From Edaphochlamys debaryana (Eukaryota; Chlorophyta; Chlorophyceae; Chlamydomonadales): 64,000 nt of DNA. The translations under genes were made by a program, and so were the position numbers. The stretch spans positions 248,001 to 312,000 of the forward strand of contig JAEHOE010000007.1 in assembly GCA_016858145.1 (NCBI GenBank), given 5' to 3'. Under the pieces are notes generated by a model. The model had not been told where the DNA came from, made no database searches, and saw only the letters and a program-made list of their open reading frames with translations. Positions 9,789-63,716 of this stretch are shown here, one piece after another (positions within the stretch are counted from its first letter, which is position 1; every line of letters starts with the position of its first letter).

Positions 9789-11086
9789 TGATGAAACATT
9801 ACGACCGAGGGGCGGATTCGTGTGCCGTACTTGCGGCGTTTGGGCCGCGGCCTAGTGCCCTGGCTGAAGAAGAGCGGGCGAGGAAGAACCTTGAGCGGAG
9901 CTCGACCGAAGATGAGTGTCCTGGATGGGGCGTGCGCTGAGGAGGCGAGGGTGCGTGCCGCGGTTGAGACGTGGGTTTGGATCAAGGGGTCCTTCAGGTG
10001 GCTGCGTCGGTGGCAGGGCGGGGTGGAGGTGGCTTGTTGTACAGTAGAGGAGGGCAGCAGCCTAGGGCTGTCACTGCGGCTGCAGAGACGTGGACCAGCG
10101 CCGAGGGTCCGGCATTGTTTCTAGCGTTTCCTTTTTATCCAGCTAGGCGGCTTGAAGGCAGCGGCATTGGCTTCGACCTAAGCGTCCTGGAACCCTATTG
10201 CTTCTCGATTGTGGTGCGCGCATGCGCGGGTTACACATTCATATTGAGGGCTGCTACGTGCGCCCAAGAACTGCCCTTCTTAGCTTCGACCTTCGAGCGA
10301 ATGCAGACGTCGGCATAGCGGCCTGAAGCTGAAGCCCGAGTGGTGCTTAGGGGTGGGTGGTGTGCTAGGAAACGAGGAAACCGTAAGCAAGCGGAAAGCC
10401 TGGCGAGCCCGGCGGTGGGTGGTGTGCGTGCGTTTGGTGGTCCGCATGTGTGGGGTGGGCGCCTGTGTGGTGGGCTGAACATGTCGGCTGCCAGGAGGCG
10501 GGTGGTGAGGATAAGTTTGTGTGGCGTGGACCAGGGCGTGGGCGGGGAGACTTTGGCCTCCAGCTTATTACGGTAGTTACTGCCACCGAGCTAATGCTAA
10601 CGATAGAGCCACGACATAAGCTCATCAAGGTTAAATCGTGCGCAGAGTGAGACGCTTGGGCGCCTGAATTAAGTTGACAACCCGATCATTGCTTCTCTGC
10701 CCCCTGTCGCCTTGGTTGTGCGTTGCCGCAGACCTCCTGCACTCAGTTCAGCAAGGCCCCGGTTGATGGGCCCGTGGGTCTCGGCGGCTGTCACGGGCGG
10801 CCCACTGCCGCACGCTGCGCTGGCTGCTGCTCTTCTTCGCGCTGTCGCGCACGCACTAAAACGTAGCCATGCCTGCAGCCCAGATAGCCTCCGCCGGGGA
10901 CCTGCTTGCCGGCGACCTGGCCCCAGCAGTGCTACTAGAACTGGACAACCCCGTGCGTCGCCGCTCTAGACGTCTGCGCTGACCACTGAGCCCGAGCCGT
11001 CATCTCAGCAGCCCTCTCCCATGTATCGGGACTATCGGCAAGCCCATCCGCCCATCCCTCCTCCTAACTGTCCTCCCTCGCCCCCC
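9789..11086. other. Intergenic / converging 3' flanks
   Basis: The 3' flanks of the plus-strand 8604 gene and the minus-strand fusion gene meet here. No recognisable coding exon, RNA gene or repeat. Short open frames have no supporting features. Confidence 0.55.
10231..10235 (-). terminator. Possible poly(A) signal (TGTAA) of the fusion gene
   Basis: TTACA on the plus strand, about 850 nt beyond the TGA at 11087. Long for a 3' UTR but possible; it is the nearest one I noticed in the right orientation. Confidence 0.3.
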
Positions 11087-13674
11087 TCACACGCCCCCGC
11101 TGGCGCCCGCTCCGCCGCCCACCGCCACGCCCGCCCCTGCCCCCGCCGCGGGCGCCCAGGGCCGCGCCGCTGGCGCCAGCGCCCCCGCATGCAGGTGCAC
11201 GTGCAGGTCGGCCCAGTCCCAGCGGGGACTGGGCACAGCACCGCACGCCACCACCACGCAGCACCCCGCGCCCCGCATGCGCCGCAGCAGCGCCATGAGT
11301 CGCGCCTCGCCCAGGGCCTCGGCAAAGGCCTCCGTGTCTTCGACCAGGAGGAGGGCGGGCCGGCGGATGAGCGCGCGCGCCACGGCCAGGCGCAGCTGGC
11401 CCGCGGGCGACAGCGCTGAGCCCGTGCCCTCCCCGAGCATGGTGAAGTAGCCGTCCTGGTAGAGGGGGAGGGGGGGAGGAAGGAGGGGGTGTTGATTGCT
11501 GAGCGGGGGGGAGGGAGGGGGGGAGGTGATCGATGACGAAATGGAAACCGTGCCCTGCCCAGCCTTTGCCCCTTCCCGCTAGCTCCTGATCCCGGTCCCA
11601 CGTCTTGAGTTCAATGCTTGCCGAGAGGCCCCGCCACCACGGCACCTCCTCCTCCGCCGGCCCCCTCACCTTGAGTGTGACCGCCTCGTCGTGCAGCCCC
11701 GCCGCCCGGCACGACGCCCGCACCTCCGAGGCTGCCACCGCACGCCCCGGCACCGCCACCGCCACGTTGTCCTCCAGGGTGGTGCGGAACACGCCGCACA
11801 TGGACCTGGGTGTGTGTGGGGGGGGGTGTTGTGAGGGGGACGAGGGAGCATAGCACAGGGCTAGGTACCGGTCCGGCCAGCCCCTAGGATGAGTGTTCAG
11901 CAATCAGCAAGCAGGAGTAGAGCGCAGCGCAGGTACATGGTCCGCTGCCCCAGGCCCGGCAGCTCTAGGTGTGGGTGCAATGTTCATGGCTGCAGGGCCA
12001 CAGGGGCGGACTTGCCGCCCAAATTGCGAAAGCTTACCGGCTGATGAGCGCCACCCTGCCGCGGGGCGGGCGCAGGTCGTCGTGTCGGAAGGAGAAGGCC
12101 GCCCACTCCCAGTCCTCGCCCGCACCGGGGCCCGCGCCAGCGAGCCCGGGCCCGGGCCCCGCCGCCGCCGGCACCCCCCCAACCGCGCCCTCCGCTGCAC
12201 CGTCCGCTCCACCGCTGACACTGGCGCGGCCCGCGCCGTGGGTGTTGGCGGCGGCGAGGGCCGGGGCCTCGCGGGCGGGCTCGCGCCTCAGCAGGCGGTC
12301 GAGGGCAGAGGGGCCCAGCAGTACGGCGGCCGAGGGCAGCGCCGAGGTGGGCAGTTGAAAGGCCAGCGTGCCCTTGTACGGCGGCATGCGTAATAGCAGC
12401 AGCGACAGCAGGCCGTGCAGGCCCTCGGGGTCGTCGCCTGCGGGGGAACAGGGGAGGGGGGGGGGCGTGGGGCAGTGCTGGTTTGAGCTTTTGGCCAGAG
12501 GCACCGGGCGCTCAAGCTCAACACCCAAGCCCTTGGCTCCAGATTCCAGAGGTTGCTATAACAGAGGGGGTCCTCAGCCTGAGAATCCCCCGCACATTGT
12601 CCACAGCTTTCTCGGGCCATGTCAACCCGATTCACCTCCAACCAACCCTGCCGCACCCCTGCCTTCCCCCCCCCCCCCCCGCCTCACCCGTCAGCGCCAC
12701 AGCCTGCCCCGCCAGCACCTCCACGGTGGCGTCCCGCAGCAGCAGGCGGTCGGTGCGGCCGCGCGTGGTCAGGTGCACGCCGCTGAGCTTGAAGCCGCCC
12801 AGCAGCCGCCCGAAGTCGGGGCGGGCGGGGACCTGGGGGGTGGGTTGGAGGGGGGGGGACGGGGGGAAGAGGGGACGGTTGAGGGGCAGGGGCGGGATTG
12901 GACTGGGGGGTGGATGGCTGGTTGCGGCCCCAGGGAAGGGCCAGGGAGTCCAGTGGGGGCCTGTGTGTTGGGGCTGTGTGGCAAGGCCCCTCGAGCGCCT
13001 GTACCCCGCCCCCGACCCACATCCGGGGGCTGATGCGTGGAAAGGCAGCCGAGTGGGAACGACGGCGCCCGTGCCCCGCCGACCCACATCCCGGGGATGA
13101 TGCGTGGAAAGGCAGCCGAGGGGGAACGACGGCGCCCGTGCCCCCCCGACCCACATCCGGCCCTCACCTCTCTGTGCACCGCGCCCCCCGCCACCCATGA
13201 CCAGGGCCCGTGGCTGGCGTCGGCGGTGGCAGCCGCCGAGGAGCCGCCGCCGCGGCCCCCGGCGGAGGCCTCCACGTCCGACCCCTCCTCCGCCAGCCCC
13301 GGCCCCGCCGGCGCCAGAGCGCCCCCCGACGACGACGGCAGCCGCCCGAGCAGCGGCTCCGTCAGGCCATTACTAATGCTTGCCGTACTGGATCGAGATC
13401 TGGACCCGCCCGCCGCCGCCGCCGGCGGAGCCGCCGGCGCCGCCGCGGCCGCGGCCGCGGCGGCGGCAGCAGCGGCGGCGGCAGCAGCGGCGGCGGGGCC
13501 GCCTCCGTCGACGTCACGGAACAGGCTGCGGCCTGCGTGTGCATCCGCCCCGCCGCCCCCCGCCGGTCCGTCCTCGCCCCCCGGTGCCGCCCCGAAGGTG
13601 CCCCGGTCGTGCAGCTCCACGAGGCGCTCCACACTGCCCAGCCCCGCCATCAGCCGGGCCCAGCTGTCGCTCGC
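11087..13674 (-). other. Fusion gene part 4: linker and degenerate ABC ATP-binding domain
   Basis: Exons 13168-13674, 12688-12832, 12038-12437, 11670-11805, 11087-11455. It begins SWARLMAGLGSVERLVEL, the usual helix leading to an ABC ATPase, then a Gly/Ala-rich linker with a 19-Ala run. The ATPase is recognisable by order but its motifs are broken. Walker A is LTGGDDPEGLHGLL (no Lys, no GKST); the Q-loop position reads VALISRS (Arg for Gln); the signature is LSPAGQLRLAVARAL; Walker B is LLLVED with the Asp/Glu order reversed; the H-loop is VVVACGA (no His). A Gly/Ala-rich insertion of about 90 residues lies between Walker A and the Q-loop. ATP hydrolysis seems unlikely. Confidence 0.75.
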
Positions 13675-16600
13675 CTGCCGGGGTGAGAGGGGGTGAGTTT
13701 GGGGGAGTGTGAGAGCGACACAGCGCGGAGAGGAGGATGCTGGGTCTGGGGGCGTCAAGTCCTGAGCGGGAGAGGTCGGGAGGGGGTCGGGAGGGGAGTC
13801 AGCAGGGGATTGGAGAGGTCGGGAGGGGGGCAGGGAGTCGGGCCAGGAGGGGGTCGGGACGGTGAGGTTGTGGATGATCAAGGTGGTGATCGGGAACAGA
13901 GCACGAAGAGGGAAATGGTGGGTTAGGGGCGTCATGCCCGGGGCGTCATGCCCGGCCAGCCTCAGGAGTGCAGGGCCCTTCCTCGTTTGGGAAAGCCAGG
14001 CTCAGGCGTGAGGGGCTCCACCTAAAGCACGCCCGCACCACTACCCCCGCCACCCCACCCCCCACTCCGCCCGCACCTGCTTGAGTCCCTTCTGCAGCCA
14101 GGAGCAGTACTGCAGCAGCGCGAAGAGGGAGCCCACGGTGGTGACACCGTCGAACAGCGCGGCGCCGCCCAGGGCCAGCAGGCTGGGGGGGGGGGGGTGC
14201 GTGGGTGGCGGCAGGGTTTGAGAGGGCCTGGCCGGCTGGAACATGCGAGGATGCGACGCGAGCAGCTGCAGGGCGGCTCCCGTCCCCAAGCTCCTATCAT
14301 ATCCCTATCCCTATCCCTATCCCTATCCCTATCCCTGCATCTACCCCTCCTGCCCCGGGGCTTCCCCGTGCTGCCCACCTGCCCCTCAGCACGGCGCTCA
14401 GCAGGCTGGTGGCGGCCGAGTGGCAGTGCATGAGGCAGTTGAGCGCAAACGTGTTGGCGAAGTAGTCCCCGGCAAACAGCCTGGGGGCAGGGTGGGGGCG
14501 GGGTTGGGGGTGGGGTTGCGGGCGTGCGGGGCGTTGGAGCGTTGCCCAGGGGCGCCGTAGTGTGGCGTGGGATGGCGTGGGATCTCCCACCCCCTCTCTC
14601 CCCCTCAAAGCCTCCGCCGCCTCCCCCCCACACACACACCTGTAGTCCGCCACCGCCCTCGGCTCCAGCCCCAGCGCCGACACCAGCGGCATGGCCCCGA
14701 ACACGGTGAGCGTGAACCCGAACATGCGCCCCATGGCCTGACGGACCGCCAGGTTGAACCTGACAGGGGGGGAGCGGGAGGGAGAGGGGGAGGGGGAGGG
14801 AGAGGGGGAGGGGGGGGGAGAGGGGTGAGGGGTTAGACTGGGGAGAGGGTGGTGGGATGTGCCGTTACGCGGGGCTGTCCATGCACGTGCATGCACGAGG
14901 TGCCCCGCGCCCAGCCACCACTCTCCGCCAGACGGGGCCCCGGGCCGACCTCCCCCCATGCGTGTGAGGACCCTTCCCCTTTCCCTTCCCTCCCCTCCCC
15001 CCCCACACCTGCGCAGGTACACCCCCACCAGCCCCGCCTCCGCCACGTCCACCGCCGCCACCGCCACGAAGGCCGCCGCCAGCTGCGGCCGCCCCCGCAG
15101 CAGGTGCCCCGCGCTGGTGGCCAGGAAGGCGGCGGCGCCCAGGAACAGGGTCAGGCCCTCGACCAGCTGCCAAGGGGGGGAGGAGAGGGGGATGGGTGGG
15201 GGTCAGGAGGGGGGAAGGGTGGAGGGGGAAGGGGGAAGGGGGGTGCAGGAAGAGGGTCAGGCCCTCGACCAGCTGAAAGGGTGGGTGGGTTGGGGGGTCC
15301 GGAGGGGTGGAGGGGGGTGAAAAAGAGGAGGGTAGGCGGGGGCGGAGGCGGAGGGAGGTGTGCAGGGGGCAGGGGCATCGTGGGATGCTGGGGTGAACGT
15401 GTGAGGTGCGGCAGGGCGCTGAGCGGTAGGGAGGCAGGCCCCGGACCCCTTGGAACCCAAGCCCAGCCCCCGGTCGCTCACGTTGAACACGGTGCCCGAC
15501 ACCAGCCCCCGCAGAGTCAGCGAGTCGCCGCTGGTGCGTGCCATGAGCTCCCCCGGGCTCAGCCGCGCGAAGAAGGGCAGGTCCTGGAACACCACGTGCT
15601 CGAAGAAGCGCCTGGGGGGGTGGGGGTGGGGGTGGGGGGGTGGGGGTGGAAGGGGTGTGCGCAAAGAGGAAGGGGCAGAGGCGGCTGGGCGGCAGGCAGC
15701 GAACTCCACACGCTCACGCACTCGCGCTTTCCCCCCCTCCCCACAACCAAACAACCCCCACCCCCACCCATCCCCCACCTGAACAGCTGCCTCATGGCGT
15801 TGCGCGTGAACAGCTCCAGCACCAGGTGCCCGGCCAGGGAGAGGGCGATGTCGGAGATGATCAGGCCTTGGGGGGAGGAGGAGATGAAGGGGGGGCAGGT
15901 GGGGGCGGTGCAAGGACGGCGTATGCTCACCGCTCATTTCGTACGAGCAGGAAGCCCAGGGCACCCCAGGGACGGTGTGTTTGTGGTGGGGAAGGGGGGC
16001 GGAGGCGAGCTCCCTACGCCCGCCCCTTCATGTCCCCTGCATCCCCTGCACGCCATCCACACGACCCTGCCTGGCCCTCAAGCCGCCCCAAAACCGTGTA
16101 GGGTGAAACGCCATCGATACAATCCGTCACCAGTCACCTGTCATCTCAACTTGCCCGGCTGATAGGGACTGTATATCCGAATGCCAAACACGCTCTCCCC
16201 CCCCGCCCCGTTCTCACCCACTGCCAGCTCCAGGTTGCTCCAGAAGGCGGTGAGGTCGAGCTCGTTGAAGGCATCGAACAGGGCGGCCTCGACACGGGGG
16301 AGGCACAGCCTGGGGGGACGGGAGGGGAGGGGGCGGCAGCGGGCATCAAGCAGGGTTCAGGGCCGGGGTGGCTGTCACGAGGGCAGTGCGGATACTGCTA
16401 AGCACCCCCCGGCTGCAGTCGATGCTCACTGCACCGCCCTCGCCCGTGCACTGCTGGTGGCCCTCGCCTCCTCCCCCCCCGCCCCCCCCCTCACCTGGCC
16501 ACCAGCCCGCTGAGCATGAGTGCGTATGCGGCCAGCATGAGGGTCTTGTCGATGGACATGACCCCCACCTTCGGAAGGGAGGGGTAGGGGGCGAGGGGTT

Positions 16601-19600
16601 TAGGGAGGAGAAGGAGGGCAGCGAGGGGTGTGTGTAGAATCGCGCTCTACCCTATGGGGGTTTTACCGTAATTCCACTGTCCCCAGTCGCGCACCCTTCC
16701 CCTTTCCCCTTCCCTCTTCCCCCTTTCCCCTTCCCCTTTCCCCTTTCCCCTTTCCCCTTTCCCCTTTTCCTTCCTCAAACCGCTCTCCCTACCCACCCAC
16801 CCACCCACCCACCCACCAGGAACATGAGCAGCTTCCCCAGCGTGGGCCGCCGCCGCTGCATCACCTCCGCGTCCCCCACCAGGGGCACATAGTCCTCGTC
16901 GCCGCCGCCGGGGCCGCCGCCGCCGCCGGTGGCCCCGCTCCGGGGGCCGCCGCCGAGCAGGCCGGTGCCCGCAGACCCCGTGTACTGAGGGGTGGGGGAA
17001 CGGGGGGAGGGAGGCACAGCAAGGGAGGAGAGCACGCTCAGCACGATATGGAGGGCTAACTCAGGCGAGGTCCGAAGGACGAGCACTGTCGCTCCAGGCA
17101 CCAAGGCGTGGCCAGTTAAATGCCAAGAGGCGTCATGCTGATGCGGCGTTTGATCCCCCAAAACAAGAAACCCCGACCCCCAAGCTGCACCCCACCCCCA
17201 AGCCCCCCCTCCTTCACCTGGTAAAAGGAGCCCAGGTGGCCCCCCCACCCCTCGTCCTGCGCCACCACCTCCCCCATGGACGAGCACAGCAGCCAAGAGG
17301 GCACGCCAGCGCCCCCCAGACCTTGACCCTGCCCCTGCCCCTGCCCCGCCGCCGACCCCGCCCCCAGGAGCCCTGCGCCCCCGCCTCCGCCAGAGGCCAT
17401 GAGGCCACGGCGCGGCGGCAGCGGCGCCAGCGGCGGCAGCCCGGCGTCGCCCAACAGCGGGGTGGCGGAGGTGGCAGAGGTGGCGGCAGGCGCGGCGGCG
17501 TCGCTCAGGCCGCTGGCGACGCTGCCGGCGCCGGAAGGTGGCGGCGGCGGCGGCGGCGGCGGGTGCGCGCCGCCAGCGGCGCCGTCGAGGCCGTTCAGGG
17601 TGGTCTGGGAGGCGGCGCGCGGCGGCGTCGGCGCGCCGGCGGCGGCGCTGCCGGCGGCAGCGGCGAAGGGGGTGGCGGAGCCGCTGGTGACGGCGTTGCC
17701 GGTGCCGCTGGCGGAGGCAGCGGGGGTGGCGGCGGCGGTGGCAGAGGCGGCGAAGGATGCGTCGATGAGCTCCTTGAGGGCGGCGTTCTCGCGCCTGGGG
17801 TAGGTGAGGGGAAGTGGGGTTGGGGGAGTGAAAGGCGTTATGAGGGGCAGAGGGGAGGGGAGCTGTCGTCGAATGGCCATTTCGAAATTCGAATGGCCAT
17901 TTCGAATGGCCATTTCCCAAAGACACGCAGGCCAGGAGAAATAGCATGTGTCAAGAGGGCATGGGAAAGGGTATGGACGGAATGGAGGGAACATGGACAC
18001 TTGCAGTTTCGGTAGCGTGGCGAGCTGAGAACGAACAGGGGCTGTGTGCTCACCTCTGCCGCGTGCGGTTGGCGCTGGCGATCTCCGCCAGAGACCGCTC
18101 CGCCGCACTCAGCGCCGCGCCGCCGCTGCCGCTGCCGCTGCCTCCCGACGCCGCCGGCGCCAGGCCCAGCCCCGACGACGCCGAGCCGCCGCTGCCCGCC
18201 CGCGCCACCGCACCCGGCAACAGCGCCTCCCTCAGCCTCTCCACCTCTTGGAGAAAGCCCTCCTCCACCTCCGCCGCTGACGTGGCGGCGGCGGCGGCGG
18301 AGCCCAACGGCCCGGCGGCGGAGCTGCCGGTTCCTGCCCCCGGCGAGCTGCCGGGCAGGGCGGCGCTGCTGCCCGCTCGGCGCGTGATGGCGAAGGACAG
18401 CGGGCCACCGCCTGAGGCGGCGGACTGGAGGGCTTGCCAGCGCAGCTTGCCGGCTGGGGGTGGGGGCGTGGGTGGCAGTGGTAAGGGGGGAGAGTGTTAG
18501 GGTTCAGGGGATGGTGGGATTGGTGAGTGCGGGGCTTGAGACGGGGGCGAGGGGTGCGGTTGCAGAAAGGTGTAGGCACCATGCGCCGCCGTCTCCGGGC
18601 AGGGGACACATGGCAGCAACTAACCATACCCGACGGCCCCCCCCCCCCAGCAGACGGACGGGTTTGAGGTTTGGGGCAAGGGCAGCAACCCACAAGGGGT
18701 CTCCAAGCAGACGGACCTGGAATGGCAAAGCCGTGGTCCACGACCGGCCCGTCCGTGCGCCCATCGCCCGTGGGGTCGGCCTTGGAGGGAGCGGGAGGGA
18801 CGGGGTGGGTTGCCCCGGCCGCCGCCGCGGCCGCCGCTGCAGCTGCCGCCGCCGCCGCCTTGCCCGCCGCCGCCCCCGAGCTGAGAAAGGCCTCGGAGTC
18901 AAACGTGGGGCCTGGGGGGGGCGCGGGCGGTGCGGGAGCGTGCTGTCAGATGCCCGTGTCAGGCCTGCCGGGCGGCCTGCGTGCTCTGCGTTTCTGCGGG
19001 CGCCACTGAGGCCTGCGCCAGACTGCAGCGGGCCCTGACCGCCCACAGCCAGCCACTTCAACTGGCATCGCAGCCATCCCCCGCGCCCCCGCCCCCCCCC
19101 CGGGCCCTACGACTCCTCCCCTCCATCATCCCCCCACCTGCGCTGATGAACTCCACCAGCTCCTGGGGGAACACCAGCAGCCCCAGCTCCAGCACCGACT
19201 CATCGCACTGCACGAAGCCTGGGGGGGGGGGAGAGGGGAGGAGCAAGGGGAGGGATCGGCAGGAGCGGTAAAAGGGAGAGGGGAAGGCAGGACAGCACAG
19301 ACATAGGCGCAGGAGGTGGGCGGCGCTAACTGTTCCCGCTGGCTGTCTCTGTTTCCACCTCCTACCCCCGTGCCCCACCCCCCTACAGCCCCCCCCTCAC
19401 CCGTCCGCGCCGAGCGCATCTCCTCCGCCAGCAGCCGCGCCGCCGTCTGCGCCTTCTTGCCCTCCACCCAGCGCTCCACGCCGTCCGGGTCCAGCGAGCC
19501 CAGCACGAAGCGGCCGCCGTGGCGGGACACCTGCGTGTTCACCTGGGGGGGGGAGGGGAGGGGGGTGGCAAGGATGGGTTGGGGGGTGGCAGGGGATAGG

Positions 19601-22600
19601 GAGGAAGCTGCCGTGTGCTCACCATGTGGCGCGGGAACGGCAGATCAGCAATGCGGCCACGATACTTGTTCCCGCTCTCGCAACACGCCCCCCCCCCTCA
19701 CCTCCTGCAGCAGCGCCCCCCACAGCATGTTGATGCCCCCCGCCCTCCGCAGCTCCCGGCGGTGCAGGAAGCCGATGGCCACCAGGTGGTCCACGGCGGC
19801 CTGCAGGGGGGGGGCACGTGGGGGGGGGGGGGAGCGGAGAGGGGGAAGGGAAGGGGGAGTAAGGGGAGGGGGGATGAGTCATTCGGGGAGGGGGGGCAGC
19901 GGCCACCAGGTGGTCCACGGCGGCCTTTAGGGGGGGGAGGGGGGAGGGGGGAGAGGAGGTCCGTGGAAGAGTGAGCTGTGTCCCGTTTCCCCCCGTCCTC
20001 TGCTCCAACCCCTCTTCCCCTCGGTACCCCCCACCCCCGCTTCCCACCATCCCCCCTCTTCCTTGCCCTCTCCCCCTCCCCTCCCCCCCCCTACCTGGAA
20101 CCGCGCATCGTCCTCGTGGAAGGGCCTCAGCACCTTGAACAGCTCCGTCTTACTCAGCCCCGTACGGCGGTAGTGCGCCCACGTGGCAGCGTCTAGGGCG
20201 TAGTCAGACCCGTGGCCCTTGAGGTACCGGACCAGGGAGCGGACCACCTGGGGGGGAGGGAGGGGGGGGAGAGGGGCAGAAGGGAGGGGAAGAGGGCGTG
20301 GGTGAGGTGGGCAACTGCCGTCTTGGAGTCTGTGCAGAGAGCAAATGGGATTGAGGGTGAGGGACAAGATTGGGGCTGAAGTATGACCGGGGAGGCAAGA
20401 GGGGGAGTAGTAGAGGGGGACCGGGGAGGCAAGAGCGAAGAGCCCTCCTCGGTCGCCTTGCCCCCCCCCGGCCGGCCCCACCTGCTGGCTGGCCGTGAAG
20501 GGCGTGCCGTCCTTCTCCAGCTCCCACACCAAATGGAACTCGGTGGTCAGGGCGTGAACGCAGGGGCGGATCAGGTCGGCGGCAATGTCCTCGCGGCACT
20601 GGGGGGGCAGGGGACAAGGGGGGTGCATGGCGTCGACGATGGGAACTTGGGGTCTGGGGAGATGCAGCTGCAACTTCCCGGTATGCCCTCACACTGCCGA
20701 GCGCTCACGCACCTGCAGTGTGTAGAAGAGCTGGGCCTGGCCGGGGGCGGACTTGAGGATGAGGACCTGGGGGGGGGGGGGAAAAAGGAGAAGGGAATGA
20801 TACTCTCCCTCCCGGCCCGTCACTCTCCCGCGCCCCGTTAACCCCCCCGCCCGGCACTCGCCTCGTTCTGCGTCACGTCGCGGCTCATGAAGTACTCAGC
20901 CAGCCAGTCCTGGGGGCAGGAGGGGGGGGGGGAAAGAGGGGAGGGGAACTTGTGGGGGCAGTGGAGACGCGGTGGTGTGGGCGACGGCGGGGCCCCCTGA
21001 GAGAAGGCTGCTCCGCGGGCGCTCTTTCCCACCCCTCAGCGCGACACCCCCCGCCCCCCCCCCGGTCCCCCCCCACACACCTACCTTGCTCAGCACCTCG
21101 ACGTCCTGGGGCTCCAGCACCAGCCCCCCCAGGCGGCACCCCGCCACCGCCTCACGCGCAGCACGCCGGGCCTCGGGGCTGCAGCACAGCACAGGTGTTG
21201 AGGATGGCGGGGGAGGGGGAGGGGGAGAGAGGGGTGAGGGGGAGCAGGGCGCAAGGCCAGCAGTGCAGGCGGCTGTCAGCTGGAGAGCTCAGGTGCCGCC
21301 CGTACCTGTACTGCTGTACGAACAGCAGTACGTCCACGTCGAAGGACCCGGGCGGCTCGGGCTGGCCGTACTTCTCCTTGAGCAGCTTGCGCGCGATGCC
21401 GCCCTTGATGCCCATGCCTTGGGGGGGGAGGAGGGGGAAGAAGAGGGAAGCGTGAGAACAGGAACGACACTGTGGGGTTGCAAGCCACCCCAACCAGCAT
21501 ACCCTCCAAAGCAACATGAACATACGCATACCCAGGCCCACCCACTCCACGCCAACCTTTCCGTCCCACCCCCGAGCGCCTGCCCTCCACCCTCCCCTTC
21601 TCCACCCCCCCCTGCGCTCACCCACGGGCAGGTCCTCCACGAAGGCCGCGATGTGCGGGGTGGTCTCCCACAGCGCCCCCAGGTCCAGCCCCTCGGCCGC
21701 CACCACCACGGGCTGCCGCACCAGGTCGTAGTGCACCTCGCGCACGGGCCGGGGCGTGAAGAGCGCGGGGATGAGGCGCCAGCGCTGGGTGCGGAAAGAG
21801 GGGGGGACGGGAGGGGAGGGGAGGGGAGCGGGGGGAGGGCTTGGATGTGGGAAGCATGCGAGAAGCATTGACGAGGCGGCCAGCGACGCAACCGACCGTC
21901 TGGGCAACGGACACCGCACCGGACCGGATCGCGACGGCACCGTACGGCACCCGTACCTGCAGCAGGTGGTAGGCCCCCGATGCGGCGGCCGCCATGAGCA
22001 GTACCACCAGCAGCACCCGCAGGATGATGTCCCAGGGCAGCGAGGCGACTGCGGCGCGGGGTGTGGGGTGGTGTGAGAACGGGGCCAAGCAGGAGCATGC
22101 GGTGGGCAGCCGTTGGCGGTTGGGCGTGGAGGTCTGAGGACAGACATGGGTGGGGCGCACAGGGCGTGTCGTCACCTCGACGCGGCCATGCCCCCGTGGG
22201 GACCTGCCCCGAAGGGCCGAATCCCGGCACTCACCGGGCCCAACGCCCTCGCCCCCCAAGCCCCCCTCACCCCCGTCATCGGCGTAGGCGGGGAAAGAGA
22301 TGGGGTCCGTCAGCTCGCTGCCGCACGTGCCGTACGCCACGCCGGGCGTGTCGCCGCCGCCGCCCCCCAGGGCCGCGAGCCCCCAGGGGCCCCCGACGTC
22401 GCCGCCGGCGGCCGCGGCGTGCGGTGCAATGACGGCGGAGCAGTCCTTGAGCTGCAGGGTGCCCTTGGACAGGCACACGCGGACCTGCGGGGGGCGGGGG
22501 GGAGGTGGCAGGGGCGGAAGGACGAGTTGGGTGTGGCAGGGGTGGGTGCTGACCCTGTATGGCAGGGGTGGGTGTGGCGGGAGCGGAGGCTCCGGGGCGA

Positions 22601-24476
22601 GCGAGCGAGCCGCTGTGGGCGTGAGGGACTGGCGAGGGAGGGAGGGGCCGTGGCTGCCGGGCGCTGGCTGCGTGCGGTGCGTGCTGGGCTCACCTCCCTC
22701 AGCACTGCGGCGCCTCCCTTGACGGCGGCGGGGGCGCAGGCCAGGCCGATGAGGGGGTTGAAGGCGGGGCCGTAGGCGGACGCCAGGGCGGCGGAGATCT
22801 GGCGGGGGCGAGGGCGAGCGGGACAGAGCGGAATCATGGCAACCCTTAATGTACTTAATGTACCGACCCATCAGCACTCTGCCTTCCGCGCCTGGATTTC
22901 ATCCTCCCTGCCATCTTCCACCCCGTTTCCCGTGCCTAGGCTCCTGGCACCCGTCCCATCCTGGTGCCCTCCGCACCTGCTTCAGCTTCCGCCCCACCCC
23001 CCTTGCCCCCCCTGCCCCCCAGTGTGTACCTGTCCCATAGTGCACCCCACCTGCCCCAGTCCAGCTTCCGCCCCGCCTCCCTTGCCCCCACTGCCACCCC
23101 CATCCCCACCCCCACCTGCTCCAGTGTGTATGCCTTGTCGCTGGAGGGCTGAATGCCGGCCGCGGCGAACACGGCACGTACGTCCGTGTGCAGCGAGGCG
23201 GCGTACGTGGCGGTGAAGTACGACAGCTGGTCCATGCCGGAGCACGTGCCGTGGCTGCGGCAGTCGGCGGTTGGGTAGGGTACCGGCACGGGAAGCGGGA
23301 AAGCGGGATGCGGGTTGTGGTTAGTATCAGGCAGTCTGGCCAGAGCTTTCCAGTGTCATGGTGATGGGCAGGGGAACCGAGGCCTAGTCCCCTGGACGCC
23401 CCTCACTGCTGGCAGCTGCCACGGCTGGTGGTCCGGCACTCTGCCCTCGTGAACCGGTACCTCGCTTCCAGCGCCGCACAGCGGCCCGCTCGCCCTCCCA
23501 CCAGGCCCCGCCCTGCCCTCACCGTGTCCACTCGTGGCTCCAAAAGGGGTGCAGGTTCTTGGGGGAGGTGGTGGTGGTGGGCGAGCGCAGGTAGTAGGCG
23601 AGGGAGGTCTCGAAGGGGCCGATCTCGGTCTGAATGTGTTTAGGGAATGGACGGGAGGCTCGGGTGAGGTAGGGCCAGCACGAGACATGAAGGGCGGGCA
23701 GAGGCGCGCAAGTGGAGACGGCGCAAACCGCCCTAGCGGGCAGTCCAGTCCCTCATCCAACTGTAACGGTCAACTGCCAACGGTGAGCTCACGGGGTCGA
23801 AGGCCTCCTTGGTGCAGTACTGCGGCAGCGGCCCCGTGAACCTGGGTGCGGGGAGGGCGGGCGGCGGGCAGCAGTAGGTGTGTGTGGATGGGGAGTCACT
23901 GCAGGACTCAGCACGTGCCAGCACGCCTGGTAGCTGAAGAGCCGTGTAACGCTCAAGCCGCATTGCCCCCCAGTACAATCATCGAGCTCCGGAACCAACG
24001 CCTCTGAAGGACATGCAGCTGGCGCATTCGATGCTAGTGCACTCTGCAGCGAGCCTCGCCCGCGGCGCCAAAACCATGCCAACCGACAACGACCGACACG
24101 CCTCACGCCACGCCTCGTCGTCTGCGCGTCGCCCACCAGCCCCCAGCCTTAGAACTTACTTGGCGGGCCATAAGCCATGGCTCCAGAAGCCAGGCGAGGC
24201 CCCTCCTGTTGCAATGACGTGCCGAGCGCGGCCCTGGGAGGCCGGGTCGATGACGCTGGGGGGCCAGTAGGTGCTGAGGATGAAGAAGTCGTATGCACTA
24301 GGTGAAGCGGGCGGCGGTTGAGCCTTGAGCAATTCGGGCGTGATGTCATGGTAGCCGGAGGCGTGGCCCGAGTCAATTGTGCCCATTGCGTAAGTGACGA
24401 GGACCATCAGCACTAAGGTTGAAAGCAGCGCCTGGCATTGCGAAGGGGGATGTCGGGAGCGTTGAGAGAGCCGCAT
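11087..24476 (-). CDS. RNase T2 - TM - ABC transporter (pseudo-NBD) fusion protein, 34 exons
   Basis: Predicted 1,950-aa membrane protein. ATG at 24476, TGA at 11087-11089; the 34 exons sum to 5,853 nt and all 33 junctions keep phase without stops. Order: signal sequence (about 17-33), RNase T2 (about 60-310), TM helix (about 314-338), uncharacterised region (342-760), Ala/Gly-rich linkers and a coiled coil (760-1086), six-TM ABC membrane domain (about 1125-1460), linker with a 19-Ala run (1460-1601), degenerate ATP-binding domain (1601-1910). Topology is consistent: RNase in the lumen or outside, ABC N-terminus in the cytosol. I noticed no TTACA (minus-strand TGTAA) in 16981-19500, the likeliest place for a boundary between two genes. 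Two adjacent genes remain possible; transcript data would decide. Exons are listed in the four part entries. Confidence 0.7.
13014..13166. repeat. Intronic minisatellite, 67-bp unit, about 2.3 copies
   Basis: The motif GACCCACATCC recurs at 13014, 13081 and 13148, a fixed 67-bp spacing, within the intron between exons 30 and 31 of the fusion gene. The copies differ by a few substitutions. Confidence 0.8.
14301..14336. repeat. (ATCCCT)6 microsatellite
   Basis: Six perfect copies of ATCCCT inside the intron following exon 28 of the fusion gene. Not the CCCTAAAA-type algal telomere unit, so a simple repeat rather than a telomere remnant. Confidence 0.9.
15245..15275 (-). repeat. Partial copy of fusion-gene exon 26 start inside the upstream intron
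   Basis: This stretch matches the first 31 or so nt of exon 26 (15136-15166) almost exactly, including an AG acceptor, but then diverges into G-rich repeat. The intact exon is the copy at 15009-15166. Confidence 0.7.
16683..16818. repeat. Pyrimidine tract (CCCCTTT)n and (CCCA)n
   Basis: A strongly strand-biased tract of CCCCTTTCC-like units followed by seven or more CCCA units, ending at the donor of fusion-gene exon 21. Purine-rich on the transcribed sense strand. Confidence 0.75.
17870..17917. repeat. Three copies of a self-complementary CGAATGGCCATTT motif
   Basis: The motif starts at 17870, 17890 and 17903 in the intron between fusion-gene exons 19 and 20. Its core AAATGGCCATTT is a perfect palindrome, and it is far more AT-rich than its surroundings. 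Confidence 0.8.
18717..21784 (-). other. Fusion gene part 2: unnamed conserved-looking region
   Basis: Exons 21622-21784, 21306-21417, 21085-21178, 20862-20909, 20713-20766, 20482-20598, 20095-20247, 19702-19800, 19401-19542, 19138-19218, 18717-18911 encode about residues 342-760. The sequence is not low-complexity: RWRLIPALFTPRPVREVHYD, then DWLAEYFMSRDVTQNE, CREDIAADLIRPCVHALTTE, GHGSDYALDAATWAHYRRTG, FVQCDESVLELGLLVFPQEL. I do not recognise the fold. Alternating helices with charged and aromatic residues suggest a globular cytosolic domain. The last exon turns into Ala-rich sequence. Intron 11 uses a GC donor (GCGAGT at 20861), the only choice that keeps phase. Confidence 0.65.
19901..19926 (-). 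repeat. Partial copy of fusion-gene exon 15 start inside the upstream intron
   Basis: 26 nt identical to the start of exon 15 (19775-19800) lie about 125 bp upstream in the intron, flanked by G-runs. The acceptor dinucleotide context differs (CTAAAG instead of CTGCAG). The intact exon is downstream. Confidence 0.7.
21957..24476 (-). other. Fusion gene part 1: signal sequence, RNase T2 domain and TM helix
   Basis: Exons 24160-24476, 23793-23841, 23523-23629, 23116-23254, 22694-22798, 22271-22484, 21957-22048. RNase T2 enzymes cut single-stranded RNA through two catalytic histidines. Both active-site blocks are present: CAS I as FWSHGLWPAK and CAS II as SHEWTRHGTCSG, with histidines, Glu, Trp and the following Cys kept. 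Other family marks are YDFFILSTYWPPS, LPQYCTKEAFDP and GIQPSSDKAYTLEQ. The domain ends with Cys-containing LKDCSAV and YGTCGSEL segments. A single hydrophobic helix follows (ILRVLLVVLLMAAAASGAY). The enzyme looks catalytically competent and secretory-pathway directed. Confidence 0.88.
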
Positions 24477-24867
24477 GGTGCGGTCGGTACGTATTTAGGG
24501 CTCACGCCATCGGCTTTGTGATTGCCGGGAGTGTCGAGTATGTGCCGAAAGCACAGGAGAGTCGACGGGGAGTAGCGGGGAGGCGAGGTAAGCGCGGTCA
24601 GCCGACCGAAGGCCACATGGCGGTGACCACCTGGTCATGGCAGTTCGTCTGCTGGCCCGCCACTCCCGCCAAGAGTGACCGTAGGCTATGTTCCTGAGCA
24701 ACAGCACGAAATAACCCTGCTTCTGGTACTTCACGCCGGAACCCTTGTGCAAGCAAGCAAGCAAAGTTGCGCGCTGATCATTTTCGCTGAATCTACTGAT
24801 AGCATCGCCACCTCCACTAAGTGATCGTCAGCGAGGAACAAACATCTGCCCGAGCGGCGTTGCGGCC
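24477..24867. promoter_or_regulatory. Divergent promoter region, fusion gene / ADAL-type deaminase
   Basis: Only 391 bp separate the two divergent start codons, so both promoters and both 5' UTRs lie here. I see no clear TATA box. Confidence 0.6.
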
Positions 24868-27800
24868 ATGGTGGCCGATGGCGCCGAAGACCACTCGCGG
24901 CAGCTCTACACGCCCGAGCTGCTAGCGGCGTGCCAGCGTCTCCCAAAGGTGGAACTGCACGCACACCTCAACGGCAGCGTCCGGCCGGAGACGATCAGGT
25001 GGAGCCATCGCTCGCGAGGGGGTGCGCGGCGGGGTGGGCCGAACCAAGGCCTGTCGGGGCCATGCCACAGGTCCCGCATCCCTCTGGCTGCTCACGTCCC
25101 GTCCTTGTTGGTTGGAGGAGGAGTTGTAGGCGAGGGTGTGCTCTGGCACCAGCGGAGTGCTGCGGATAACGGCCACCGGTCCCACGCTTCCCCACACGCA
25201 AAGAACCTCGTCCCTCCACACCCCGCCCCTCCCGCCAAGGGCCATTCTAGACGAGCGGTCCGCCGCGGGCGAGGCCCTCCCCGTCACCCCCCAGCAGATG
25301 GCAGAGCTGGGGCCGGGCGGGGGCCGCAGCCTGGCGGAGTGCTTCCGCCTCTTCGATATCATCCACGCAGTCACCACCACGCACGCCGCCATCTCACGCA
25401 TAGCACAGGTGGGACGAAGGGGTCGGGGGCCACCGCCGTCGCACACCCAATAAGAATCCTGTGCGGAGCACGCCGGAGTCCGCTGGCCTAAAACGGCTAA
25501 AGTGACCTTTGTCCCCGCCCCCGCCTCCGCCACTCCCACCTCCGCCATGCGGCAGTTGTGCTGATGATTCGGACCCCCGCTCCCTTCGCCCGGTCCTCTT
25601 CCCGACGTCCCCGTCCCCGCCTCTACCCCCTTCCCCCCCAGGAGGTGGTGGCGGACTTTGCCGCTGACCGGGTGGTCTACCTGGAGCTGAGGACCACACC
25701 CAAGGCGGGCGGGGCACGTGCATGCACCCGCCGGCCTGGCGTGTCACGTGCTCGCAATCGCATGTTACTGCACACGGTCTGCATTGAGAGTACCGGGTAT
25801 GGGGACGACCTCCGCTGACTCGTTGTAAATACCACCCTGGTGCGCACGCTTGCTCCTCTCCCGCAACCTGGGCAGGCCCGACCCGAGTACGGCATGACCA
25901 AGGAGTCGTACGTCATCGCCGTACTGGACGGCATCGACGCGGCGCTGGCGGCCCTGGCGGCGCACCCGCGCGGACCGCAGCCCCAGCTCCTGCCCGCCCA
26001 CCCCCACCCCCAGCCCCACCCCCAGCCCCAGCCCCACGCCAACCCAAACGGCGTGGGCCCAGGGCCAGGGCCCCAACCCGCCCCGGACGCATCAGGCTCT
26101 AGCCAGGGCCCAGAGGACCAGGCTGAGGCGGCGGGGCCAGAGGCGGCAGGGAGCCGGCGGGGCGGCGTCGCCAGCCCCTCGCGGGAAGCCCTAGCGGCAG
26201 CGTCCGCGGAGCTGTCCGTGTCCCCTCCCGGCACAGCGCCAGCCACCTGCCTCCAGGAGCCCCGCCCCGGGGAAAAGCAGCCGCCCGCCGCTCAGCCCCA
26301 GGCGACGAGGGAGCATGGGTCGGGGACCGGACCAGCAGGCGACGGGGCCGAGGGTGGTGCAGCCGTGGGGGGTGGGGGTGGGGATGGGGATGGCCGGGGC
26401 GGTGGTGCCTGGCCGCCCATTGCGGTGAAGCTGCTGCTGAGCATCGACCGCCGGGAGGACGCGGCCGCAGCCCTGGAGACGGTGAGCTTGGAGGGGATGG
26501 CCGGCAGGGGCTGGAGGGTTACTGGGGTTGGCAGGGCCAGGAAGAGGCTTGCGCGCGCACGGTCGCCATGTCCCCCTTTCCTTCCGGCTTTCGTCCCTCC
26601 TTCCCGCCCCCCTCCCACCCTTCCTCTCCTCCTGCCCTCTCGCCTCCTCCCCCCTCCCCATCTGCCGCCAGGTGCAGCTGGCGGCGCGCCTCGCCCCGCG
26701 CGGGGTGGTGGGGGTGGACCTATCGGGCAACCCCGTGGTGGGGGCCTGGGCCGCCTGGGCGCCGGCGCTGGCGGAGGCGCGGCGCCTGGGCCTGCGCGTG
26801 ACGCTGCACGCGGGGGAGGTGCCGGCGCCGGCCGAGGTGGCGGCCATGCTGGCCTTCCGACCCGACCGCCTGGGGCACTGCTGCTGCCTGGACGCGGGGC
26901 TGGGGTCGGAGCTCAGGGTGGGGCGTGGGAGGGGGAAGGGGGGGTTGGGAAGGGGTCCGGGAGTGGGGCTGGGCGGCAGGTGCGGCTTCGGATGGGGGCT
27001 TGGGTGTGGGGCTGCGGCCGGCGGAAGTACCCACCCGTGCCGTGTGCCGTGTGCTGCGCCTGGACACGTCAGCGCGGCCCTTTCGGCCTTGTTTCCGGCC
27101 CATGTTTTGGCCACACGCCCAAGCCCGCTCACACTTACCCGCCAACCACGCGTCTGCACCCTTCCCCGACCCTTCCCCCAGGCGTCCGCCATCCCGCTGG
27201 AGCTGTGCCTCACCTCCAACGTGCTCACGCAGTCCGTGCCCTCATACCCGGAGCACCACTTCGCGGAGCTCTACGCGGCAGGCCACCCCGTGGTCCTGTG
27301 CACGGTGCGTGCGTGCGTGAGCGTGCGTGTGCGCGTGTGCGTGTGCGATTGCGGGCGTGGGTGTGGGCGTCATGGCGGAGGGGTGTGGGTGTGTGTGTGG
27401 AGGCAGAATGCCGGTGCGCCGAGGGGTGTGCGGGTAAAGCTGGGAATTGGCGTGCCGCATTCGCAGTCCCCCTGACCTCCAGACCCGTCCCGGCCTTGTT
27501 CGGGGATGAAGGCGGCCATTACCTAGGCGCCCTCATGTGCCCCTCTCCACACCCCAGGATGACTCGGGAGTGTTCGGCACCACCCTGTCGCGGGAGTATG
27601 CCATCGCAGCGGCCGCCTTCAACCTGTCCAGTGAGCTGGGGGGCGCCAGGGGGCGGCGGGATAGGGCAGAGGGAGGAGGACACCGGGGACCAACGCATAC
27701 GCAGCGTGGGTGCCGATACGCGGGGCTTGCTTACTCCAGCCCCCAGTCACCTTTGGGGCGAGCGCCTTTGTTCCTCTGCGTGCTAGTGGCCGCCTGTCTG

Positions 27801-28037
27801 CCCATCTTGCTTGTCAACGGCCTACACCCTCTGCTCTGCTCCGTTTCGCAACCATCCTGTCGGTGGATTGCCTCAAGCAAGCCGCTGATTTAGAGCCGGC
27901 CCTGCGCCCCTCCATACCCCGCAGTCGCTGACCTGCAGGAGCTGGCGCGCCGGAGCGTGGGGTACGTGTTTGCCGGCGAGGAGGAGGAGGCGGCGCTGAG
28001 GGAGGCGGTGGAGCGGGGCCTGGCGGGCAACGTGTGA
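24868..28037 (+). CDS. Adenosine deaminase-like protein (ADAL/MAPDA type, N6-methyl-AMP deaminase)
   Basis: Eight exons in phase (24868-24998, 25240-25408, 25642-25704, 25876-26481, 26672-26917, 27182-27304, 27558-27630, 27925-28037) give 507 aa. Family role: zinc-dependent hydrolytic deamination, for ADAL of N6-methyl-AMP to IMP. Metal and catalytic motifs are visible: LPKVELHAHLNGS (His31, His33), TLHAGE (His369, Glu372), RPDRLGH and the CTDDSGVFGT pair (Asp447, Asp448). LLSIDRR and LCLTSN also fit. The active site looks complete. A low-complexity His/Pro/Gly/Ala insertion of about 140 residues sits in exon 4. The junction after exon 3 needs a GC donor (AAG then GCGGGC); this is the weakest boundary. 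No transit peptide, so probably cytosolic. Confidence 0.88.
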
Positions 28038-61577: not shown

Positions 61578-61615
61578 TTATTGAGTGAGCATCCGGGTTA
61601 ACACTCACGCGCTGG
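61509..61615. repeat. Direct repeat, upstream copy (transposase 3' end)
   Basis: The last 69 nt of the transposase coding sequence plus the following TTGAGTGAGCATCCGGGTTA region recur at 62687-62793 with a few substitutions. The unit length is 1,178 bp. Confidence 0.88.
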
Positions 61616-61947
61616 ACCCCCTGCGCCGCTGCGGACCTGGCGGCGGCGACGGCCTGCGCAGGAGTGCGGAGCGCTGGACCCCCCTGCGCCGCTGCGGACC
61701 TGGCGGCGGCGGCGGCCTGCGCCGGAGGGCGTTGCGCTGGAGGCCCCTTCACCGCTGCGGAGCTGGCGGCGGCGACGGCATGCGCTGGAGTGCGGAGCGC
61801 TGGACCCCCTGTGCCGCTGCGGACCTGGCGGCGGCGGCGGCCTGCGCTGGAGTGCGGAGCGCTGGACCCCCTGTGCCGCTGAGGGCGTTGCGCTGGAGGC
61901 CCCTTCACCGCTGCGGAGCTGGCGGTATCCGCCGGTCCACAGGGTTG
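61610..61947. repeat. 63-bp minisatellite, block 1 (about 5 units)
   Basis: Units of about 63 bp start CTGGACCCC and contain TGCGGACCTGGCGGCGGC and GGAGTGCGGAGCG. The block ends with GGTATCCGCCGGTCCACAGG, as does block 2. Because 63 is a multiple of three and stop codons are absent, long open frames appear on both strands; I do not regard them as genes. Confidence 0.88.
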
Positions 61948-62686: not shown

Positions 62687-62793
62687 TTCATGACTCAGCC
62701 CATGTTTTTGATATATGTGCGGTATTTTTTGTTTATGAGGGCTCTGCTTGATTGATTGTTGAGTGAGCATCCGGGTTAACACTCACGCGCTGG
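62687..62793. repeat. Direct repeat, downstream copy of the transposase 3' end
   Basis: Second copy of 61509-61615. It starts inside the coding frame (TTCATGACTCAGCCCATG) so it is only a tail fragment of the transposase gene. It leads into block 2 of the minisatellite just as the first copy leads into block 1. Confidence 0.88.
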
Positions 62794-63716
62794 ACCCCCT
62801 GTGCCGCTGGGGACCTGCCGTCGGCGGCGGCATGCGCCGGAGCGCGGAGCGCTGGACCCCCCTGCGCCGCTGGGGACCTGCCGTCGGCGGCGGCATGCGC
62901 TGGAGGGCGTTGCGCTGGAGGCCCCTTCACCGCTGCGGACCTGCCGTCGGCGGCGGCATGCGCCGGAGTGCGGAGCACTGGACCCCCCTGCGCCGCTGCG
63001 GACCTGGCGGCGGCGACGGCATGCGCTGGAGTGCGGAGCGCTGGACCCCCCTGCGCCGCTGCGGACCTGGCGGCGGCGACGGCATGCGCTGGAGTGCGGA
63101 GCACCGGACCCCCCTGTGCCGCTGCGGACCTGGCGGCGGCGGCATGCGCCGGAGTGCGGAGCACTGGACCCCCCTGCGCCGCTGCGGACCTGGCGGCGGC
63201 GACGGCATGCGCTGGAGTGCGGAGCGCTGGACCCCCCTGCGCCGCTGCGGACCTGGCGGCGGCGACGGCATGCGCTGGAGTGCGGAGCGCTGGACCCCCT
63301 GTGCCGCTGGGGACCTGCCGTCGGCGGCGGCATGCGCCGGAGTGCGGAGCACTGGACCCCCCTGTGCCGCTGCGGACCTGGCGGCGGCGACAGCCTGCGC
63401 AGGAGTGCGGAGCACTGGACCTCCCTGCGCCGCTGCGGACCTGGCGGCGGCGACGGCATGCGCTGGAGTGCGGAGCACTGGACCTCCCTGCGCCGCTGCG
63501 GAGCTGGCGGCGGCGACGGCATGCGCTGGAGTGCGGAGCGCTGGACCCCCTGTGCCGCTGGGGACCTGCCGTCGGCGGCGGCATGCGCCGGAGTGCGGAG
63601 CACTGGACCCCCCTGTGCCGCTGCGGACCTGGCGGCGGCGGCGGCATGCGCCGGAGGGCGTTGCGCTGGAGGCCCCTTCACCGCTGCGGAGCTGGCGGTA
63701 TCCGCCGGTCCACAGG
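62788..63716. repeat. 63-bp minisatellite, block 2 (about 14-15 units)
   Basis: Same unit as block 1, with variants marked CTGGGGACCTGCCGTCGGCG and GCGGACCTGGCGGCGGCGAC that alternate irregularly, and some units shortened by 3 bp. It ends with GGTATCCGCCGGTCCACAGG. Open frames of up to about 390 codons on both strands are a by-product of the unit length. Confidence 0.9.

Follow-up and report, generated by a model that had tools for sequence, protein, structure and literature searches.

Known ribonucleases of the T2 family (RNase T2) are small proteins that are secreted or reside in vacuoles or lysosomes, the secreted enzymes being commonly linked to phosphate starvation, and ATP-binding cassette (ABC) exporters transport cargo away from the cytosol. 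To our knowledge, RNA turnover across membranes, as in RNautophagy, extracellular RNA and the decay of rRNA in vacuoles, has mainly been described for proteins that are separate. Here we analyse a stretch of 64,000 nucleotides, hereafter the window, from the green alga Edaphochlamys debaryana (contig JAEHOE010000007.1, positions 248,001 to 312,000), whose minus strand carries at 11087-24476 a gene predicted to combine an RNA-degrading enzyme, the fold of a likely RNA-tailing enzyme and a transporter membrane domain in one chain, an arrangement kept across two green-algal orders. A first-pass annotation had joined RNase T2 through a transmembrane (TM) helix to an ABC-exporter-type membrane domain in one protein, and knew of no described fusion of this kind. 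The joint architecture is borne out by our analysis, as a prediction here and in relatives. No published RNase T2-ABC fusion was found among the listed titles and beginnings of abstracts, so that a description in other papers is possible, and a term search of the main text of a plant RNase T2 survey returned 0 occurrences of 'fusion' and 'abc' (PMC9250077).

Gene model and relatives

The gene extends from ATG 24476 to TGA 11087, with 34 exons summing to 5853 nt of coding sequence, i.e. 1950 residues with a single stop, at the end. Of its 33 introns, 32 are GT-AG and one, after exon 11 (20767-20861, minus strand), is GC-AG. An independent dynamic-programming gene finder, for which C. reinhardtii codon usage and splice matrices were the sole input parameters, returned unaided one minus-strand gene of 33 exons from ATG 24407 to the stop at 11087. 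Two features were set by hand, namely the upstream in-frame ATG 24476 and the exon 20909-20862, the latter because the gene finder could not propose the GC-AG intron that follows it. With these additions, the coordinates, strand and 34 exons of the first-pass annotation, which had described all 33 junctions as agreeing in phase, were recovered. The in-frame coding score is the highest among the six frames in all 34 exons, and is above zero in 33 (exon 1, -0.08).

A search with the whole protein yielded five matches to the region 310-700 (P0002-P0006, E ≤ 1.4e-86), and a profile search added P0007-P0010; its 85 weaker matches out of 94 (E 1.3e-23 and worse) were classed as ABC transporters from the match table. 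Together with the partial protein P0001 from Tetrabaena, these relatives include proteins of Tetrabaena socialis (P0002), Chlamydomonas eustigma (P0004) and Tetradesmus obliquus (P0005). As C. eustigma and Tetrabaena belong to the Chlamydomonadales and Tetradesmus to the Sphaeropleales, the RNase T2-ABC fusion, found in C. eustigma and Tetradesmus obliquus, spans two algal orders. No match named C. reinhardtii or Volvox appeared in the protein and profile searches, which scored only candidates sharing most words. RNase T2 (PF00445) and an ABC membrane domain (PF00664) are both annotated on P0003, P0004, P0005 and P0009. Our own Pfam scan of five proteins places both domains over the cut-off in P0003, P0004 and P0005; in P0009 RNase T2 is over and ABC_membrane slightly under it (27.1 versus 28), and P0006 gives no match, yet can be aligned along its whole length. 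For the window protein, Pfam was run on three pieces (residues 1-700, 1087-1492 and 1601-1950).

The window protein has its domains in the same order as P0003, P0004 and P0005, to which its RNase, middle, membrane and ATPase domains are 40-66% identical; this excludes chance as an explanation. Identity to P0003, P0004 and P0005, respectively, is highest in the middle domain (66/64/61%), followed by the membrane (58/56/49%), RNase (54/43/45%) and ATPase (40/42/43%) domains. The low-complexity linker (residues 701-1128, exons 18-21, 16859-18897, minus strand) is weakly conserved, with 25/26/25% identity to the same proteins and 12-34% in pairwise comparisons, although short conserved pieces can be seen by eye; the coiled-coil junction of the first-pass annotation falls within it.

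Partial relatives give some room to the alternative that two adjacent genes have been wrongly joined. P0001, on an 18 kb contig, covers RNase T2, the TM helix and the last part of the middle domain, and breaks off in the linker ahead of the ABC part. Most of the RNase is missing from P0002. P0010 terminates, and P0007 and P0008 start, within the middle domain, the break between P0010 and P0008 apparently lying on one contig (equal length 13,330). Against this alternative, P0002 continues across that linker and reaches the ABC part, RNase T2 and ABC_membrane occur together in four other proteins, and the single-gene score of 319.0 exceeds all 22 two-gene splits (at most 307.9; split points 16000-21250), a margin that is clear, not huge. 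Mild support for a single gene further comes from TGTAA, which we take to be the Chlamydomonas poly(A) signal: the sole copy on the minus strand within 10000-25000 lies 3' of the ABC end, at 10231-10235, and the gene contains none (1.2 expected). In view of the split scores and relatives, we reject the two-gene reading as extremely improbable; the RNase T2 and ABC parts almost certainly form one fused protein.

A search for a further copy in the genome listed nine matches, all of them exons of the fusion gene, and no Rfam match reached the gathering score in the window. A 67-base tandem repeat (13009-13158) lies within an intron of the gene, and a 106-base imperfect duplication (15140-15332) straddles the boundary between exon 26 and the intron before it.

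Domains of the predicted protein

The RNase T2 domain (residues 62-254, exons 1-6, 22440-24293, minus strand) matches PF00445 at 6.7e-30, with 105 bits against a cut-off of 26, and its best likeness in the PDB is RNase NGR3 (1vcz, 1.8e-19). Catalytic His are present in both conserved blocks, WSHGLWP and SHEWTRHGTC, together with the Glu (H100, H154, E155 and H159), in agreement with the intact RNase T2 with both catalytic histidines described from the first pass. Both blocks are also whole in P0003, P0004, P0005 and P0010. In the RNase block of P0009, Glu is replaced by Gln and the following Thr by Ser, and P0006 has lost the RNase histidines; the fusion is thus retained in two relatives with altered residues, those of the RNase in P0006 and, in P0009, the nucleotidyltransferase DxD as well as the RNase Glu. 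At least two further RNase T2 loci are found on another contig of this alga, hence the fusion is not its sole RNase T2.

The protein begins with a hydrophobic stretch, predicted to be a signal peptide or signal anchor (residues 1-36, 24369-24476, minus strand; hydropathy 2.05 at residues 16-34). This peak exceeds the threshold in the window protein and in none of five relatives (P0003-P0006, P0009); by eye, the N-termini of P0003-P0006 are signal-peptide-like and P0009 starts without one. A predicted TM helix follows the RNase (residues 314-340, exon 7, 21960-22040, minus strand; hydropathy 2.41 at residues 318-336), at the same place in all five relatives, with a net charge of -3 before and +2 after it. 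Based on the N-terminus, the helix and its flanking charges, RNase T2 is predicted to reside outside the cell or in a lumen, and the middle domain in the cytosol. The lumenal or extracellular RNase of the first-pass annotation is therefore supported in part, through the hydrophobic N-terminus and the charges around the helix.

Between this helix and the ABC part lies a conserved domain of 360 residues on which the first-pass annotation is silent (residues 342-700, exons 8-18, 18898-21784, minus strand), and which a structure model, Foldseek and VIA matches and a motif pattern characterize as nucleotidyltransferase-like. An AF2 model of P0003, built from nine sequences (mean predicted local distance difference test, pLDDT, 68.2; low confidence at the RD motif), superseded a poor earlier one (pLDDT 53.6). 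Foldseek ranks FAM46A first, the structure comparison contains a run of nucleotidyltransferase rows, and the model points to the head-and-neck fold of the class II CCA/FAM46 clade. In addition, GG..R, DxD and RD...N occur in the order seen in class II CCA-adding and PolyA_pol enzymes, a pattern drawn up after both groups had been inspected. All five relatives in alignment A1 share these residues without exception (in the window protein GG 401-402, R405, D422/D424, R474-D475 and N479).

The alternative is an inactive or different fold, serving as a mere RNA- or protein-binding adaptor. It is in line with the outcome of the sequence searches: at E ≤ 10, none of the five A1 members matches PF01743 or PF07984, presumably the FAM46/TENT5 accession, and Pfam, NCBIfam and PDB sequence searches with the domain gave nothing credible, the best PDB match (E 0.31) being a dehydrogenase. 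A profile comparison with bacterial CCA-adding enzymes and poly(A) polymerases scored within 60 shuffles, though the motifs aligned in the right order, and is consequently not counted as support; a first, cruder comparison gave a probability of 0.6%. The EDxxR amino-acid template, found as ED..R in 29 of 29 bacterial proteins, is not at its expected position; EDxxR occurs at position 242 in P0002 (the one hit in nine alignment rows) and at residue 582 of the window protein. Both hits fall at one and the same site, which is not conserved and does not lie where the neck helix begins. The loss of DxD in P0009 and the low model confidence at the RD motif point in the same direction. The motif order, the run of nucleotidyltransferase rows and the invariance of GG, the next R, the DxD pair and RD...N all speak against an adaptor, which we regard as unlikely. 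A nucleotidyltransferase fold is, by contrast, highly probable, and the domain may on balance still be catalytic. The domain had no match in phage records, and of 16 stretches fitting a pattern in viral contigs, none encodes a relative.

The exporter-type membrane domain (residues 1129-1455, exons 21-30, 13606-16858, minus strand) matches PF00664 at 3.2e-12 (47.2 bits, cut-off 28). Among solved structures it is most similar to ABCB exporters, and in NCBIfam to the TAP2 family (TIGR00958, 4.6e-26, far under the model cut-off). The stretch RLSPGELMARTSGDS within this domain is almost unchanged among relatives. The subsequent ATPase or nucleotide-binding domain (residues 1606-1918, exons 31-34, 11186-12820, minus strand) is degenerate, with PF00005 under the cut-off (E 0.0012; 19.8 bits versus 25). 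Seven members (the window protein, P0003-P0007 and P0009) were compared with three bacterial reference sequences. None of the seven retains the LSGG signature or the Walker-B glutamate, Walker A is near-canonical in P0005 only, and the H-loop His is retained in P0007 only; the window protein reads GDDPEGLH, LSPAGQ and LLLVED, with the H-loop His absent. As signature and Walker-B Glu are lost throughout, the ABC half is unlikely to operate as a self-driven pump, and the membrane conduit of the first-pass annotation finds no support in a self-powered version. A heterodimer with an active ABC partner, or a scaffold, is possible. Separately, ABC_membrane matches are numerous on contig C3 of G000 at about 118-443 kb. 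They lie in both orientations and several score equally, possibly reflecting a recent ABC gene expansion.

These motif losses would fit a pseudo-transporter acting as scaffold or sensor, in which the ABC part serves to anchor and dimerise the protein, and nucleotide sensing by the nucleotidyltransferase-like and ATPase-like domains tunes the RNase opposite; the displaced EDxxR is also compatible with it. However, the membrane domain is 49-58% identical to P0003-P0005 versus 40-43% for the ATPase, and RLSPGELMARTSGDS is retained, suggesting that the helix bundle itself matters. We consider such a scaffold rather unlikely. Scavenging, with RNase T2 breaking down external RNA and the products being imported by the ABC part, was the function put forward in the first-pass annotation. 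The predicted outer or lumenal RNase and the association of secreted RNase T2 with phosphate starvation agree with it, but the ABC half is of the exporter type, whose direction of transport is opposite to nucleotide uptake, the key ATPase motifs are lost, and the best-conserved domain is left without a role. Scavenging hence appears distinctly improbable.

Neighbouring features

Head-to-head with the fusion gene, about 390 bases from its start, lies a plus-strand gene (24868-28037, ATG 24868) of the adenosine deaminase family. In a provisional exon joining it matches PF00962 at 1.7e-48 and, as best PDB match, 6ijm at 2.2e-83, which we take to be the Arabidopsis N6-methyl-AMP deaminase that clears RNA breakdown products. 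The two genes possibly share a promoter, which would fit RNA turnover. Elsewhere in the window, 63-base tandem repeat arrays occupy 61609-61881 (about 4 copies) and 62787-63698 (about 15 copies).

Discussion

Based on the well supported architecture, we tentatively favour a membrane RNA-handling protein for RNA disposal across a membrane, while viewing this function as somewhat short of probable. The N-terminus would direct the RNase to the cell surface or into a lumen, and the TM helix would keep the nucleotidyltransferase-like domain on the cytosolic side; there the domain may bind the 3' ends of RNA or extend them. The ABC half, which probably pairs with itself or with an active ABC partner, could then provide a passage, or a scaffold bringing RNA to the RNase. 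In a bolder version, which we regard as speculative and unlikely as it stands, the protein would be a 'tag, thread and shred' machine, i.e. a green-algal RNA-disposal translocon: the cytosolic domain would grip and tail RNA 3' ends, a dimeric ABC-derived passage would thread the RNA, and RNase T2 on the far side would cut it as it emerges. As the predicted RNA-enzyme fold and the RNase would lie on opposite faces of the membrane, and the algae can be cultured, membrane crossing of RNA becomes directly testable. Such a three-part protein with a previously unrecognised nucleotidyltransferase-like core would represent a new type of membrane protein and, if the assignment is true, would extend the class II CCA/FAM46 nucleotidyltransferase clade by a strongly conserved branch that has had no name so far.

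Compared to the RNase T2 family (PF00445; NGR3, LE, human RNASET2), the likeness comprises the whole catalytic domain with both active-site blocks, but here the RNase is the first seventh, at the N-terminus, of what is predicted to be a polytopic membrane protein. With TAP and ABCB half-transporters the fusion shares the exporter-type membrane domain, the TAP2 match remaining far under its cut-off; it differs through the lost ATPase motifs and the approximately 1,130 residues, made up of the RNA-enzyme domains and the linker, that precede the membrane domain. The middle domain resembles class II CCA-adding enzymes and bacterial poly(A) polymerases (PF01743) in its predicted head-and-neck fold and ordered motifs, whereas it has no PF01743 match, no EDxxR at the template position and no recognised body or tail domain, and has a predicted membrane tether. 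FAM46/TENT5 poly(A) polymerases are its first-ranked structural likeness, through FAM46A; FAM46B/C are described as having a head and a neck but neither body nor legs (PMC11646218), like the middle domain, which differs in lacking a Pfam match to that family and in being joined to RNase T2 and ABC domains. Finally, RNautophagy (LAMP2C, SIDT2; RNA uptake into lysosomes) is alike only in the way it works, RNA crossing a membrane for degradation; its proteins are unrelated by name, and there the membrane proteins and the RNase are separate, while here they would be joined in a single chain.
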